Assembly (NCBI GenBank): GCA_944388605.1
Contig: CALXJJ010000013.1
Location: 1-40,179 of the forward strand
Direction: 5' to 3'
DNA: 40,179 nucleotides
Origin: an uncultured Clostridia bacterium
GTDB lineage: Bacteria; Bacillota; Clostridia; TANB77; CAG-508
The notes below the pieces were generated by a model that searched no databases, was not told the DNA's origin, and was given only the letters and a program-made list of their open reading frames with translations. The number at the start of each line of letters is the position of its first letter. Position 1 is the first letter of the stretch. Shown in pieces: positions 4,023 through 38,709 of the stretch. The translations under genes were made by a program, and so were the position numbers.

Positions 4023-4050
4023 TTAGAGAAAACTTATGTTAAGAAAAAAA

Positions 4051-4108
4051 GCGACATGATTTAGATATTTAAACATTTTAGATTATTTACACATGTCGCG
4101 TATTTATT
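4051..4108 (+). terminator. Probable aspS terminator
   Basis: GCGACATG (4051-4058) pairs with CATGTCGC (4092-4099) around a long AT-rich loop, followed by TATTTATTTG. The loop is unusually large (33 bases) and the U-run interrupted, so it is a fair rather than strong terminator. It starts 29 bases after the aspS stop. Confidence 0.5.
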
Positions 4109-4114
4109 TGTGTA

Positions 4115-4144
4115 CCAATTTTGCCAAGTCAAAATTGTGTGCAA
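4115..4144 (+). repeat. Fragment of the 110-bp intergenic repeat
   Basis: Carries CCAATTTTGCCAAGTCAAAA then TTGTGTGCAA, the hairpin module of the repeat (CAATTTT with AAAATTG). The 5-prime two thirds seen at 11.6, 32.7 and 38.6 kb are absent. A GAATAGG-family hairpin follows 24 bases later. Confidence 0.55.
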
Positions 4145-4167
4145 CCGTTAGTGCGTAGCGACTTTTA

Positions 4168-4198
4168 TACAATAGGAAAGGATAACTTTCCTATTGTA
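4168..4198. repeat. 13-bp perfect hairpin of the GAATAGG family
   Basis: TACAATAGGAAAG pairs with CTTTCCTATTGTA around a GATAA loop. It is similar in arm sequence to the hairpins at 2149 and 33042. It has no U-tract on either strand, so it is not a plain terminator. Confidence 0.55.
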
Positions 4199-4208
4199 GT
4201 ATCCAAAA

Positions 4209-9803: not shown

Positions 9804-11549
9804 CTATGAATCTAATATATACTTATCTTTTTTAGTATAGTGTGTATGTAAATAATGATGTGCTTTTTCTCCTCCTGGTTTACCCAAAAATTCTTTATAT
9901 ATTGTCTTTAATGTTGGATTTTCGTGTGACTTTCTTATTACACTTTTTTCATCTATATCATATAAACTATCTGCTCTTAATTTTCTTACATCCACTGTAG
10001 AACGTATTTTTGAGTTCTTTATTGGTTGACCTCCTCCCATTACACATCCTCCAGGGCAACTCATCACTTCTATAAAATGATATGGTGATTCACCTTTTCT
10101 TACTTGTTCCATCATTTTTCTTGCATTATTTAACCCACTTACAACTGCTATTTTTATATCTTTACCAGCAATATTTAACTTTGCTTCTTTTATACCTTTT
10201 TCTCCTCTTACCATTTTATATTCTATATTTTCTATACTTTTCCCTTCTAATAAATCTGCTGATGTTCTTAATGCTGCTTCCATAACACCTCCTGTAGTTC
10301 CAAAAATAGCACCTGCACCTGATGCTTCTCCCATTGGATCATCAAAAACACTATCTTCTAATTTTTCAAATTCTATATTAGCCTGTTTTATCATTCTCGA
10401 TAGTTCACGAGTTGTTATAACATAATCTACATCTCTTATTCCATCCACTTCCATTTCTTCTCTTGAGCATTCATATTTTTTTGCAATACATGGCATTACA
10501 GATACCATACATAATTTATTTACATCAATATTATATTTTTTTGCATAATATGACTTTATGATTGCTCCAAACATTTGGTGTGGTGACTTACAACTAGATA
10601 AATGTTCCAATTGTTCAGGGAAATTTTTTTCTGCAAATCTTATCCATGCTGGACTACAAGAAGTAAACATTGGTAATACCCCATTGTTTTTTACTCTCTC
10701 TACAAACTCTGTAGCTTCTTCCATTATTGTAAAATCTGCTCCTGTATTTGTATCAAATACTTTATCAAATCCCAATCTTTTTAATGCAGTTATCATTTTC
10801 CCTTTTACATTTGTTCCTATTGGCATATTAAATTCCTCTCCTAATGCCACTCTAACTGCTGGAGCAGTTTGTACTACAACAAACATATCCGGATCTTTAA
10901 GTTTTGCCCAAACATCATCTATATTTTCTTTCTCTTTAAGTGCTCCTGTTGGACATGCTTGTATACATTGTCCGCAAAAGGTGCAATCCACATCATTTAA
11001 ACTATGGTCATATGTAGTAGAAATACAAGATTCAAATCCTCTTCCAATACAATCAATAGCTCCTATATTCTGTATATTATTACATGCTGCAACACATCTT
11101 CTACATAAAATACATTTGTTAAAATCCCTTACTATTGCAGGTGATTTATCATCTATTTTGTGATTTGTTCTTTCTCCTTCAAATTCCACATTTAATACAT
11201 TAAACTTTGTTGCTAAAATTTGCAATTCACAATTTCCAGAGCGTGTACAAGTTAAACAATCTTTACTATGATTAGATATAATTAAATCTAGTATTACATG
11301 TCTTGCTTCTAATACATTCGGAGTATGAGTATGAACAATCATACCTTCTTCTACTTTTTGTATACATGATGTTGCAAACCCCTTTCTTCCTTCTACTTCT
11401 ACTATGCACATCCTGCAATCTCCCATCTCATTTATTCCTTTTAGGAAGCATAGAGTTGGTATATCTATTCCCGCTTGTTTTGCTGCTTCTAATATAGTAG
11501 TGTTTTCTGGTACTGTAACATTTACATCATCTATTTTTAAATTAATCAT
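9804..11549 (-). CDS. hydA: [FeFe]-hydrogenase catalytic subunit HydA (trimeric, bifurcating type)
   Basis: Makes or oxidises H2; with HydB and HydC it is expected to couple NADH and reduced ferredoxin. 581 aa. Seen in order: [2Fe-2S] domain Cys34/45/48/62; His94-Cys98-Cys101-Cys107 cluster; two [4Fe-4S] motifs, CILCRRCVAAC and CTFCGQCIQACP (146-199); H-cluster signatures TSCSPAW (296-302), MPCIAKKYE (352-360) and CPGGCVMGGGQP (498-509); a small-subunit-like tail. Signature 1 has Ser299 where the textbook motif reads TSCCPxW. RBS is AAGGAGAT. It is the third gene of hydC-hydB-hydA, with a repeat element in the 161-bp gap before it. Confidence 0.95.
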   Translation of the reverse strand: MINLKIDDVNVTVPENTTILEAAKQAGIDIPTLCFLKGINEMGDCRMCIVEVEGRKGFATSCIQKVEEGMIVHTHTPNVLEARHVILDLIISNHSKDCLTCTRSGNCELQILATKFNVLNVEFEGERTNHKIDDKSPAIVRDFNKCILCRRCVAACNNIQNIGAIDCIGRGFESCISTTYDHSLNDVDCTFCGQCIQACPTGALKEKENIDDVWAKLKDPDMFVVVQTAPAVRVALGEEFNMPIGTNVKGKMITALKRLGFDKVFDTNTGADFTIMEEATEFVERVKNNGVLPMFTSCSPAWIRFAEKNFPEQLEHLSSCKSPHQMFGAIIKSYYAKKYNIDVNKLCMVSVMPCIAKKYECSREEMEVDGIRDVDYVITTRELSRMIKQANIEFEKLEDSVFDDPMGEASGAGAIFGTTGGVMEAALRTSADLLEGKSIENIEYKMVRGEKGIKEAKLNIAGKDIKIAVVSGLNNARKMMEQVRKGESPYHFIEVMSCPGGCVMGGGQPIKNSKIRSTVDVRKLRADSLYDIDEKSVIRKSHENPTLKTIYKEFLGKPGGEKAHHYLHTHYTKKDKYILDS

Positions 11550-11571
11550 TTTAAATCTCCTTTCTCAAAAT

Positions 11572-11681
11572 AGAACAAATCGGAAAGCCTTAAAATTTAT
11601 ATTAATTTTATCTTTCCTCGTTAGCTTTTTAGTAAATTTGTTCCTAAGCCAATTTTACGAAGTCAAAATTGTGTGCAATGG
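11572..11681 (+). repeat. 110-bp structured intergenic repeat, copy A (inside the hyd operon)
   Basis: Outer arms GAACAAAT (11573-11580) and ATTTGTTC (11636-11643), inner AAAGCC opposite AGCTTTT, a central hairpin TAAAATT/AATTTTA, then a second hairpin CAATTTT (11650-11656) / AAAATTG (11665-11671), ending GTGTGCAATGG. It sits between hydB and hydA and would be part of their mRNA in reverse-complement orientation. It may act as a processing or stability element, or be a MITE-like insertion. Confidence 0.7.
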
Positions 11682-11710
11682 ATTCTCTATTTTTTTACTA
11701 TTAATATTAT

Positions 11711-13585
11711 TTATCCATTTCCTATTGCTTTAAAAGGGCAATGAGTTAAACATGTTCCACATTTTATACATTTATCTTGGTTTATTGTTCTTATTTCTCT
11801 TCCGCTTCCTTCAATTGCATTTACAGGGCATCCTTTTTGGCATAGTCCACAACCTTTACATTTCTCTGGATCTATAGTAATTTTAGATAATGCTTTACAT
11901 TCTAAAGCTTTACATTCCTTTTCCATCGCATGTTCTCTAAATTCTTCTCTAAAATATTTAAGAGTACTTAAAACTGGATTAGGCGCACTTTGACCAAGTC
12001 CACATATACTTGCTTTTTGTATATTTACAGCCAATTTTTCCAATTTATATATATCTATCATATCTCCTTCACCAGAACAAAGCCTTTCTAATATTTCTAA
12101 CATTCTCTTTGTTCCAATTCTACATGGTGTACATTTTCCGCAACTTTCACTTACAGTAAATTGTAGGTAAAACTTAGCTAAACATACCATACATTTTGTA
12201 TCATCCATTACAATAAGTCCACCTGACCCCATCATAGAGCCAATTTGTTTTAAAGATTCATAATCAATCGGTGTATCCAAATGTTCTTTTGGTATACATC
12301 CTCCTGATGGACCACCAGTTTGTGCTGCTTTAAATTTTCTACCATTAGGTATACCACCACCTATATCAAATACTATTTCTCTTAAAGTAGTTCCCATTGG
12401 TACTTCTACTAATCCTACATTATTTACATTTCCTCCTAAAGCAAACACTTTTGTTCCTTTTGAATTTTTTGTTCCTATTTGTGAAAACCATTCTGAACCA
12501 TTAAGTAATATTCTTGTTACATTTGCCAATGTTTCTACATTATTAATTACTGTTGGTTTGCCCCATAATCCACTTACAGCTGGATATGGAGGTTTTACTC
12601 TAGGTTGACCTCTTTTTCCTTCTATTGATTCTAATAGTGCTGTTTCTTCCCCACATACAAAAGCTCCTGCACCTAAGCGAATATCTATATCAAAATTAAA
12701 TCCTGTATTAAATATATTTTTTCCTAGCAATCCGTATCTTCTAGCTTGATCAATTGCAATTTTTAATCTTTTTACCGCTATAGGATATTCCGCTCTTACA
12801 TATACATATCCTTGATTTGCTCCAATTGCATATCCTGCTATTTCCATTGCTTCCAATACGCTATGTGGATCACCCTCTAATATACTTCTATCCATAAAAG
12901 CTCCTGGATCACCTTCATCTGCATTACAAATTATATATTTTTGTTCATTTTCCTGTTCTTTAGCAGTCATCCATTTTCTTCCTGTAGGGAATCCTGCTCC
13001 TCCACGTCCTCTTAATCCAGATTTTGTAATTTCACCTATTACTTCATATGGAGTCATTTTTAATAATACTTTTTCTAGTGCTTTATATCCATCAAAAGCT
13101 ATATATTCATCTATGTCTTCTGGATTTATAATTCCACAATTCTTTAAAGCAATTCTCTTTTGCTTTTTATAAAAATTCAGTTCATCTAATTTTTTTACAA
13201 TACTTCCGTCTATATCCTTACATAATAATCTATTTACTTCTTTTCCTTCTATAATATGTGAATTTATTATTTCTTCGCAGTCTTCCACTTTTACATGTGC
13301 ATAAAAAGTGTCTTCTGGTCTTATTATAACAATTGGTCCTTTTGCACATAAACCAAAACAACCTGTTTTAATTACTCTTACATTTTCTAATTTTTTTTGT
13401 TTTACTAATTCTTTAAATTTTTCTAATATTAATACAGATTTAGATGAAGTACATCCTGTTCCATTACATACTAATATGTGTTTTTCTCTCGTGTTAGCAT
13501 TAGAATTCACTCTTAAATCTAACTGTATTCTTTTTTCTTTTCTTATTTTTTCTAATTCATCAAAATTTTTCATTTTTAATCTCAT
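11711..13585 (-). CDS. hydB: Bifurcating hydrogenase NADH/FMN subunit HydB (NuoF-like)
   Basis: Carries the flavin where NADH electrons are split or merged. 624 aa. An N-terminal thioredoxin-like [2Fe-2S] domain (Cys40, Cys45 in VCNGTGCTS, then TGCFGLCAKG) is followed by the NuoF core: GRGGAGFPTGRKW (NADH/FMN), CGEETALLESIEGKRGQPR, and the [4Fe-4S] motif ESCGKCTPCRIG. The C-terminal 2[4Fe-4S] ferredoxin domain has CKGCGLCQKGCP and CIKCGTCLTHCP. This domain set is the HydB type rather than respiratory NuoF. The start is ambiguous: AGGAGG lies two bases before the ATG at 13585 and 14 before the ATG at 13573. Confidence 0.94.
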   Translation of the reverse strand: MRLKMKNFDELEKIRKEKRIQLDLRVNSNANTREKHILVCNGTGCTSSKSVLILEKFKELVKQKKLENVRVIKTGCFGLCAKGPIVIIRPEDTFYAHVKVEDCEEIINSHIIEGKEVNRLLCKDIDGSIVKKLDELNFYKKQKRIALKNCGIINPEDIDEYIAFDGYKALEKVLLKMTPYEVIGEITKSGLRGRGGAGFPTGRKWMTAKEQENEQKYIICNADEGDPGAFMDRSILEGDPHSVLEAMEIAGYAIGANQGYVYVRAEYPIAVKRLKIAIDQARRYGLLGKNIFNTGFNFDIDIRLGAGAFVCGEETALLESIEGKRGQPRVKPPYPAVSGLWGKPTVINNVETLANVTRILLNGSEWFSQIGTKNSKGTKVFALGGNVNNVGLVEVPMGTTLREIVFDIGGGIPNGRKFKAAQTGGPSGGCIPKEHLDTPIDYESLKQIGSMMGSGGLIVMDDTKCMVCLAKFYLQFTVSESCGKCTPCRIGTKRMLEILERLCSGEGDMIDIYKLEKLAVNIQKASICGLGQSAPNPVLSTLKYFREEFREHAMEKECKALECKALSKITIDPEKCKGCGLCQKGCPVNAIEGSGREIRTINQDKCIKCGTCLTHCPFKAIGNG

Positions 13586-32256: not shown

Positions 32257-32667
32257 ATGAAAAGTAATACAGCTAAAAATTTAAAAAACTCTTCACAAAC
32301 TAAAAAAGAAGAGGAAATTCTTATTAGAAAGCAAATAGGACAAAACTTAAAACTAGCTAGATCAAATGTTGATATGACTCAAGAAAAGTTAGCTGAAAAA
32401 ACTGGTCTTTCTGTTAGGTACATAAGTCAATTAGAAAGAGGCTATGCTTTTGGTAGTTCCTCTACTATTGTTTCTTTATGTAATAGTTTAAATATTTCTG
32501 TAGATTTTCTATTTGGAAATTTTATAACAAATAATAAATCGCACACAAGTGAATTTTCTAATGATGATTTTATTAATTATTATTTAAAATTAAACCATTC
32601 TAATAAAAATCTTTTAAAACTTATAGCTAAACAATTAGTAGAATTACAAAAAAAAGATAATGAATAA
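32257..32667 (+). CDS. XRE-family transcriptional regulator
   Basis: 136 aa. The HTH is at residues 25-80 (IGQNLKLARSNVDMTQEKLA, TGLSVRYISQLERG, LCNSLNISVDFLFG). The C-terminal 50 residues are short and helical (NYYLKLNHSNKNLLKLIAKQ), probably a dimer contact. The ATG at 32257 is preferred because GGAGG lies just upstream and within the ORF that begins at 32245. It is the only regulator in the window, isolated among housekeeping genes. Its target is unknown. Confidence 0.85.
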   Translation: MKSNTAKNLKNSSQTKKEEEILIRKQIGQNLKLARSNVDMTQEKLAEKTGLSVRYISQLERGYAFGSSSTIVSLCNSLNISVDFLFGNFITNNKSHTSEFSNDDFINYYLKLNHSNKNLLKLIAKQLVELQKKDNE

Positions 32668-32694
32668 GAGTTTGCTTAAACAGTAGCAAAAAGG

Positions 32695-32802
32695 AGAACA
32701 AATCGGAAAGCCTTAAAATTTATATTAATTTTAAACTTATCTTTGGTTTTTCCGTAAATTTGTTCCTAAGCCAATTTTACGCATGTAGAATTTTGTGCAT
32801 TG
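32695..32802 (+). repeat. 110-bp structured intergenic repeat, copy B
   Basis: Shares GAACAAATCGGAAAGCC and TTCCTAAGCCAATTTTACG with copy A. The inner 3-prime arm reads GGTTTTTCCG here, which pairs with CGGAAAGCC better than in copy A, while the central TTAAAATT/AATTTTAA hairpin is kept. The second hairpin is changed (GCATGTAGAATTTTG). Stem-preserving differences point to selection on structure. Confidence 0.65.
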
Positions 32803-32913
32803 TTTTTTCTATATTACTTTAAAGTCCTAGCAAGAAGCGTATAAGATTTGTTGTAGGAAAAATTGTAAAGCAATTTTCCTGTATAATTTTATTTTTTGCA
32901 TTTCCTATAATGG

Positions 32914-33000
32914 GACAAATCTCTCTTCGCGAGAACTTTTCTCTACTTTTCTAATTTAACTATATATATTTAAGTTCTCGAAGAAGCGTAAAGATTTGTC
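32914..33000. repeat. 87-bp imperfect inverted repeat in the xre/rplL gap
   Basis: GACAAATCT (32914-32922) pairs with AGATTTGTC (32992-33000), then CTTC/GAAG and GAGAACTT (32931-32938) with AAGTTCTC (32972-32979). The ACAAATC/GATTTGT ends resemble the outer arms of the 110-bp family, so it may be a diverged relative. A shorter AGGAAAAATTG/CAATTTTCCT hairpin lies just upstream (about 32846-32873). Confidence 0.5.
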
Positions 33001-33041
33001 GACGCGAAAAATTGCATAGAAATTTTTCTGTGCAATTTTGT

Positions 33042-33088
33042 TTTTTTGTTGAATAGGAAAAATCAAGTTTTTCCTATTCAACAAAAAA
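33042..33088. repeat. 21-bp perfect hairpin of the GAATAGG family
   Basis: TTTTTTGTTGAATAGGAAAA and one more A pair perfectly with the sequence at 33068-33088 around a TCAAG loop. On the reverse strand this block and its neighbour (AAAATTGCACAGAAAAAT near 33020-33040) repeat what follows the aspS T-box at 2149-2220. Confidence 0.6.
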
Positions 33089-33119
33089 GTGGATTAGAAA
33101 AAATACTTTCTAATTCACT
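33083..33119 (-). terminator. Terminator of the rplL operon
   Basis: AGTGAATTAGAAA pairs with TTTCTAATCCACT (one mismatch), followed on minus by TTTTTTG. It lies 28 bases after the rplL stop, so rpoB/rpoC are not co-transcribed with rplL here. Confidence 0.8.
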
Positions 33120-33146
33120 TTTTTGTATTTCTATGAATTTAACTCA

Positions 33147-38601: not shown

Positions 38602-38709
38602 AGAACAAATCGGAAAGCTCTAATTTAATTCAAACTTTAACTTTCTCTTTGGCTTTTTAGTAAATTTGTTTCTAAGCCAAATTTACGAAGTCAAAATTGC
38701 GTGCAATGG
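38602..38709 (+). repeat. 110-bp structured intergenic repeat, copy C
   Basis: Shares GAACAAATCGGAAAGC, GGCTTTTTAGTAAATTTGTT and TTTACGAAGTCAAAATTG with copy A. AAAGC and GGCTTT face each other as the inner stem. The central hairpin is changed. It lies upstream of the rpsB promoter, antiparallel to rpsB. Confidence 0.7.

Follow-up and report, generated by a model that had tools for sequence, protein, structure and literature searches.

The repeats dispersed through the window (the whole 40,179-nt stretch analysed here) probably belong to a family of non-autonomous mobile elements, of the BOX/REP kind, that had no name so far, in which two modules, M1 and M2, insert as a unit and a mobiliser provided in trans would act on the folded single strand. 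This apparently undescribed family combines a covarying fold, apparent recent activity and a measurable placement bias towards hairpins. The sequence-only reading of this DNA had recognised no named family; consistent with that, no Rfam family passed its gathering threshold in the window, and the matches by E-value at 32660–33120 stayed below threshold. We found no named family equal to the repeat in Rfam or in the open-access literature; it may have been described elsewhere.

Module M1 is about 100–106 nt long and consists of hairpins H1 and H2; most copies then run into M2, of about 50–60 nt. The order of H1 is GAACAA, a variable inner stem, an AT-rich loop of ~30 nt, the returning inner stem, a bulge of 3–4 nt and TTGTTC. 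Hairpin H2, GCGC-C-AATTTT...AAAATT-G-T-GTGC, has a bulged T, and the G.T pair next to it hardly ever varies. In M2, a GC-GNA-GC mini-hairpin (H3) is followed by a TAGGAAA...TTTCCTA palindrome (H4). The core of H3 is GC-NNN-GC, with GNA as the loop in 107 of the 124 copies possessing H3; the outer arms of H4 vary between copies but remain palindromic. The element is gene-less, with no ORF of its own. The 110-bp unit proposed earlier describes M1 (106 nt at 11572–11677), while most copies in the genome, M1 plus M2, extend over ~165–190 nt.

Two peculiarities of the H4 loop were seen. At four places (L012, L063, L145 and L154/L155) the loop occurs in two orientations, GGATAAC and GTTATCC, which suggests hairpin inversion. 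At four others (L304, L308, L315 and L364/L376) the loop of the M2 palindrome holds an insert of ~70–110 nt with AAGTTTCATATTG, as if another small element targeted the hairpin. A role of H4 as the element's own terminator was ruled out: the outer arms T...A are paired, H4 lacks a U tract of its own, and a separate hairpin follows it in many loci. An attC-like cassette was considered as well, but by eye the boxes do not match.

For a covariance model, R1, we used ten copies taken from three genomes and aligned with MAFFT (alignment A2). All three copies claimed from sequence alone, at 11.6, 32.7 and 38.6 kb, were recovered by R1 with E-values of 5e-16 or better, all on the forward strand and all without recognisable M2. 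The copy at 11572–11677 (99 bits; H1 at 11573–11643, H2 at about 11648–11676), a member of the ‘CTAAGCC’ subfamily, is placed antisense between a NuoF-like gene and an [FeFe]-hydrogenase gene, whose start codon is 22 nt away. These two genes (9804–13585) belong to what looks like one operon, and the M1 copy separates them just upstream of the hydrogenase start. The copy at 32695–32799 (98.7 bits) lies between genes for an HTH regulator and ribosomal protein L7/L12, and that at 38602–38705 (88.7 bits) lies upstream of the ribosomal protein S2 gene and antisense to it.

Two fragments had also been reported, at 1.83 and 4.12 kb. The former is a true fragment, at 1827–1850 on the forward strand (the 3′ end of M1, the H2 tail only); the latter turned out to be a complete older copy of another subfamily, on the forward strand at 4043–4143 (stem AAAGCGACATG...CATGTCGCG; R1 61.9 bits, E 1.6e-10); the gene preceding it codes for a class II tRNA synthetase (D/K/N type). 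It is followed on the same strand by its M2 at 4144–4200, in which H3 with GTGCGTAGCGAC occupies 4151–4162 and the H4 palindrome core TAGGAAAGGATAACTTTCCTA occupies 4173–4193. Upstream of the class II (D/K/N type) tRNA synthetase gene at 2208, at ~1950–2135, there is a T-box-like leader (GGTGGCACCGCGAAG...CGTCCC, by eye) with no Rfam gathering match. The earlier reading had missed a long-stem subtype-B element with its M2, as well as a minus-strand remnant of this subtype. Subtype-B M1 is at 32914–33034 on the forward strand (R1 26.8 bits, E 0.003), with a long H1 (ACAAATCTCTCTTCGCGAGAAC...GTTCTCGAAGAAGCGTAAAGATTTGT) and an H2 that has G-C in place of C-G beside the bulged T; its fold has a z-score of −5.7. 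An M2-type palindrome, TTGAATAGGAAAAATCAAGTTTTTCCTATTCAA, follows at 33040–33090 (forward strand). The remnant, at ~2142–2222, comprises H2 and the M2 palindrome and is an 85% inverted match to 33008–33088.

Compared with dinucleotide shuffles, the fold of M1+M2 has a z-score of −6.3; among single shorter sequences, six of seven had z-scores from −2.7 to −5.7, and the remaining one, from G007, showed no excess folding. Pairing had been said to be ‘kept or improved’ where copies differ. We saw this for the 32.7 kb copy and for the wider family; the dominant version in the host genome, AGCTTTTTAG/CTAAGCC, pairs less well, at −18.4 kcal/mol versus −34 to −36 kcal/mol for the canonical GGCTTTCCG/TGCGCC version.

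In the host genome (G000, 1.307 Mb), BLAST found 44 matches to a window copy, many of them 95–100% identical over the same span; R1 found 139 copies with the cut-off set at E≤1, of which about 124 remained when E≤0.01 was required. The predicted ‘hundreds per genome’ should therefore read about 100–140, though many further copies do exist. All genomes compared were draft metagenome assemblies. Within the host's taxonomic family the distribution was patchy: R1 matches at E≤0.01 occurred in 41 of 145 genomes, in 24 of 39 genera, with 0 to at least 27 copies per genome (1 to at least 27 in carriers, 27 being the number of candidates scored). Order-wide, 47 of 191 genomes matched, and 46 of the 47 came from that same family. 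An exact pattern scan of a collection of 84 980 species genomes gave 89 stretches; among the matches listed, all were uncultured Clostridia, Clostridium or Eubacteriales MAGs, except for two small contigs labelled Rickettsiales and Bacilli, which are perhaps misbinned. These two element-bearing contigs are L216 and L221; the latter is 99.98% identical to L247 over 6.1 kb, so that misbinning or a shared contig is likely. Two diagnostic patterns had no match in viral contigs, nor was the element matched in the phage and plasmid collections; thus, it is not an element of those collections.

Evidence for mobility comes from genome pairs, picked by an all-against-all comparison and by R1 and aligned at element sites. 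In close pairs, M1+M2 was present in one genome and absent from the other at five sites, and at three more the difference was M1 alone. At L283/L324 the empty site AAAT-AG-GAAAAAGAGTTCTTGACTTAGTCAAGAACTCTTTTTT corresponds to the occupied site AAAT-AG-[AACAATAG...CCTATTCA]-AG-GAAAAAGAGTTC. Presence/absence is likewise clean at L285/L325, beside AAAAGGAGGGATTTTCCCTCC, and at L367/L377, GAAG[AACAAATCGG...TTGTAT]AACAACAACG. The pair L286/L323, which is the same site as L196/L232, has extra nucleotides at both ends. At L369/L385 we observed a tandem birth: a copy of another subfamily directly precedes one that stands alone in the relative. Other compared sites were shared between relatives (e.g. 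L293 and L364), and at L284, L289, L297, L298, L317, L370 and L372 the partner had remnants or different sequence. A stretch of ~1.36 kb in L196 (789–2144), apparently gene-bearing, is missing from its close relative L232. Length differences at L211/L226, L178/L213 and L170/L201 were caused by sequences other than the M1/M2 element.

Given the extra end nucleotides at L286/L323 and the remnants at several partner sites, some of the differences are deletions. Still, we infer that most cases of presence/absence are due to insertion and not to precise loss, most strongly where the empty site is traceless. As sites differ between genomes that are ~98% identical in the compared loci, the element appears to have been recently active. 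Target duplication was AG (2 nt) at two sites and AACAA (5 nt) at one, with 1-nt losses elsewhere; at the best sites it was 0–2 nt. Being ambiguous, it does not point cleanly to any single class of enzyme. L283 and L285 suggested a fixed 2-bp core (AG), which was rejected, as L367 (TAT|AACAA) does not fit.

The sites differing by M1 alone bear on what the mobile unit is. At L301/L326, where the occupied genome holds a tandem pair, and at L308/L405 and L318/L407, the M2 is common to both relatives and the difference is exactly one M1 beside it. One could therefore suppose that M1 alone is mobile and targets hairpins, that M2 is a general hairpin-type repeat, and that M1+M2 arose by M1 landing beside M2; M1 does exist without M2 (the window copy at 11572, L017, L026 and L093), and M2-like hairpins occur in genomes without an M1 match. 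However, M1 and M2 arrive together, at sites lacking M2, in L283/L324, L285/L325, L367/L377 and L369/L385, and the M1-only changes may be gains or losses. We consider this explanation rather unlikely, even if it is the strongest competitor of insertion of M1+M2 as a unit.

The two ends of the unit are unalike. The left end, (A)GAACAA, is sharp: G is found at position 0 in 205 of 213 copies and A at −1 in 180 of 213; outside it the sequence is AT-rich with no motif. On the other side, the 60 nt beyond H4 have a median MFE of −11.5 kcal/mol, versus −4.3 kcal/mol for the 60 nt before H1 (128 copies with H4; Wilcoxon p = 6e-13). A hairpin beyond H4 was recognised by a simple rule in 72 copies, in 55 of which it starts within 10 nt of H4. 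As a T-rich tail was present in only 25 (versus 7 on the left flank and 4.75 in mononucleotide shuffles), the term ‘terminator’ is secure for a subset only. Between codirectional genes the element is antisense in 33 cases and sense in 10, by crude ORF calls. The placement beside hairpins may reflect a preference of the mechanism or a filter of selective tolerance.

Ends and placement also bear on another possibility, that of a classical MITE moved by double-stranded cut-and-paste, for which some unseen IS with the same ends would supply a DDE transposase, the fold being a by-product of palindromes and of their correction. The element is indeed short, gene-less and AT-rich, with many copies, patchy occurrence and occupied/empty sites, all of which is MITE-like; the variable yet palindromic H4 arms, with the loop in both orientations, are what correction of DNA palindromes would give, and no strong RNA-strand bias is seen. 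On the other hand, terminal inverted repeats are absent (the left GAACAA and the right H4 are unrelated), there is no target duplication of fixed length (0–2 nt at the best sites, or ambiguous), and placement is directional. A MITE of this type thus seems improbable.

Covariation was counted in alignment A3 (104 copies from the window, the host genome and many relatives), whose copies were fitted to R1, so that the counts lean towards the R1 fold: at least one two-sided compensatory change was found by RNAalifold in 16 of the 22 predicted pairs. The G82-U113 wobble is kept in 101 of the 104 copies; next to the bulged T, 85 copies have a C-G pair and 13 a G-C pair, and for columns 80/115 the pair is G-C in 74 copies but C-G in 13. 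Pair counts in A2 showed the same tendency against shuffled and slid controls. Selection on a folded form, as suggested from the window alone, is thus supported by the 16 covarying pairs and the A2 controls. As a sign of selection on the RNA of one strand, G-U was counted against A-C in the H1 inner stem: clustering at 85%, with 41 representatives, gave 15 G-U versus 9 A-C (p 0.31), and clustering at 90% gave 25 versus 13 (p 0.07).

The initial alternative had been a non-autonomous mobile element or a recurring RNA module. The first is favoured by the occupied/empty sites, the sharp left end and the patchy copy number; the second is not established, since the tilt of G-U over A-C is not significant and the one-strand RNA signature is weak. 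A functional structured RNA (a small RNA or a 3′-UTR or leader module), kept for use by the host and multiplying by duplication, would account for the covariation, the conserved bulged U and G.U wobble, the weak excess of G-U over A-C and the copies adjoining hairpins. It is hard to reconcile with absence from most relatives, site-by-site differences between close relatives, codirectional copies mostly antisense to both neighbours and weakened pairing in the host genome's dominant variant; we regard it as quite improbable. An assembly or binning artefact, conceivable as draft MAGs were used throughout and some contigs end inside the repeat (e.g. L288/L290 against L307), is practically precluded by the same fold in dozens of independently assembled genomes and by most copies lying within contigs with unique flanks.

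For a non-autonomous element inserting as M1+M2, we propose the following mechanism. The unit probably inserts as one piece starting at (A)GAACAA, with its H4 end usually placed beside an existing hairpin, either a terminator or another copy; insertion beside another copy leads to tandem arrays. M1 is also gained or lost alone, directly 5′ of M2. The mobiliser, presumably acting in trans, may recognise the folded single strand through the bulged T, the conserved G.T pair, the GNA mini-hairpin and the palindrome. Of DNA hairpins, d(GCGAAGC) is an extraordinarily stable one. The bulged T, the conserved wobble, the GNA mini-hairpin and the little or no target duplication were counted towards single-strand recognition. 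A second dispersed repeat, AGAATTTCTTAAATTAATTTTATGG...CCATAAAATTATTTTAGAAATTCT, was noticed in G166: it is ~200 nt long, with long inverted ends and at least 15 copies (e.g. L334–L347), and sometimes stands beside the M1/M2 element.

The obvious candidates for the mobiliser were examined. G000 has no transposase of the Y1_Tnp, Y2_Tnp or DEDD IS110 type, and the occurrence of these three does not follow copy number. Y1_Tnp was absent from both G000 and G025, high-copy genomes that are draft assemblies where a contig may be missing; Y2 was present in 15 of 145 genomes, G000 not among them. In 20 regions around Y1 genes of relatives, no M1 was detected at E≤0.01. Hence, Y1, Y2 and IS110 transposases were rejected as obvious mobilisers. 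Y1 transposases of ~240–300 aa, a RAYT-like length, occur in many genomes of the host's taxonomic family. No autonomous copy of the element was seen.

Possibly, the elements are mobilised as folded single strands by an enzyme acting in trans. One could speculate further, with considerable doubt, that they form a new class of single-strand-mobilised elements, in which an enzyme belonging to neither the HUH nor the IS110 families known today would recognise the folded M1/M2 DNA, and the element would home to hairpins, both terminators and its own M2 palindromes; if so, modular and tandem assembly of copies would reshape gene 3′ ends across a family of gut Clostridia. We claim no benefit of the element to the host. 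In practical terms, the family matters when genomes of this group of gut bacteria are annotated or assembled and when their transcription units are predicted.

Several known systems invite comparison. In elements of the IS200/IS605 group, the enzyme reads unpaired bases of subterminal hairpins; insertion is strand-directional and duplicates the target little or not at all. The likeness of our element to their ends and non-autonomous derivatives is one of apparent working only (PMC8266576, PMC6006769). It differs in that the host has no matching TnpA and no fixed flanking tetranucleotide was found. Group IIC introns use terminators as insertion targets. Insertion at stem-loop DNA targets in a fixed orientation is a point of resemblance (PMC10190682, PMC7923331). 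The element, however, is far too short and has neither intron RNA domains nor a reverse transcriptase. The SPRITE repeats of Streptococcus pneumoniae are likewise hairpin repeats near gene 3′ ends; SPRITE is itself terminator-like (a duplex plus a U-rich tract; PMC3049150), whereas H4 lacks its own U tract and in many cases lies beside a separate hairpin.

The BOX elements of S. pneumoniae, boxA-boxB-boxC, are thought to be non-autonomous mobile elements and are over-represented between convergent genes (PMC3049150). Like them, our element is small, intergenic, modular (M1 and M2 are separable), highly base-paired, present in many copies, over-represented between convergent genes and presumably mobile; the resemblance is one of kind only. 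Unlike BOX, it has directional placement by hairpins, a covarying bulged-T hairpin and a spread across a family of uncultured Clostridia. With REP/BIME/REPIN sequences (TnpA-REP/RAYT) it shares many extragenic palindromes, bulges, lineage-specific subfamilies and a location mostly downstream of genes (PMC3733652, PMC8266576, PMC3116915). REP/BIME sequences are marked by a palindrome of 20–40 nt with a GTAG or CGTC tag left unpaired at its foot, and CGTC REPs, too, lack a RAYT/Y1 transposase (PMC3733652). In the M1 consensus, no GTAG or CGTC tag was present at the hairpin foot, and nearly all of the 213 copies start with (A)GAACAA; also, the M1/M2 unit is 3–5 times longer, its host has no Y1 transposase, and the Y1 genes of relatives are not flanked by the element. 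As neither the REP tag nor the RAYT association was found, we see here a new family that is of the BOX/REP kind but has distinctive features and is a member of neither group. It makes a tractable system for a long-standing question, the spread of small intergenic repeats that have no known transposase, among them BOX and the CGTC-REPs.
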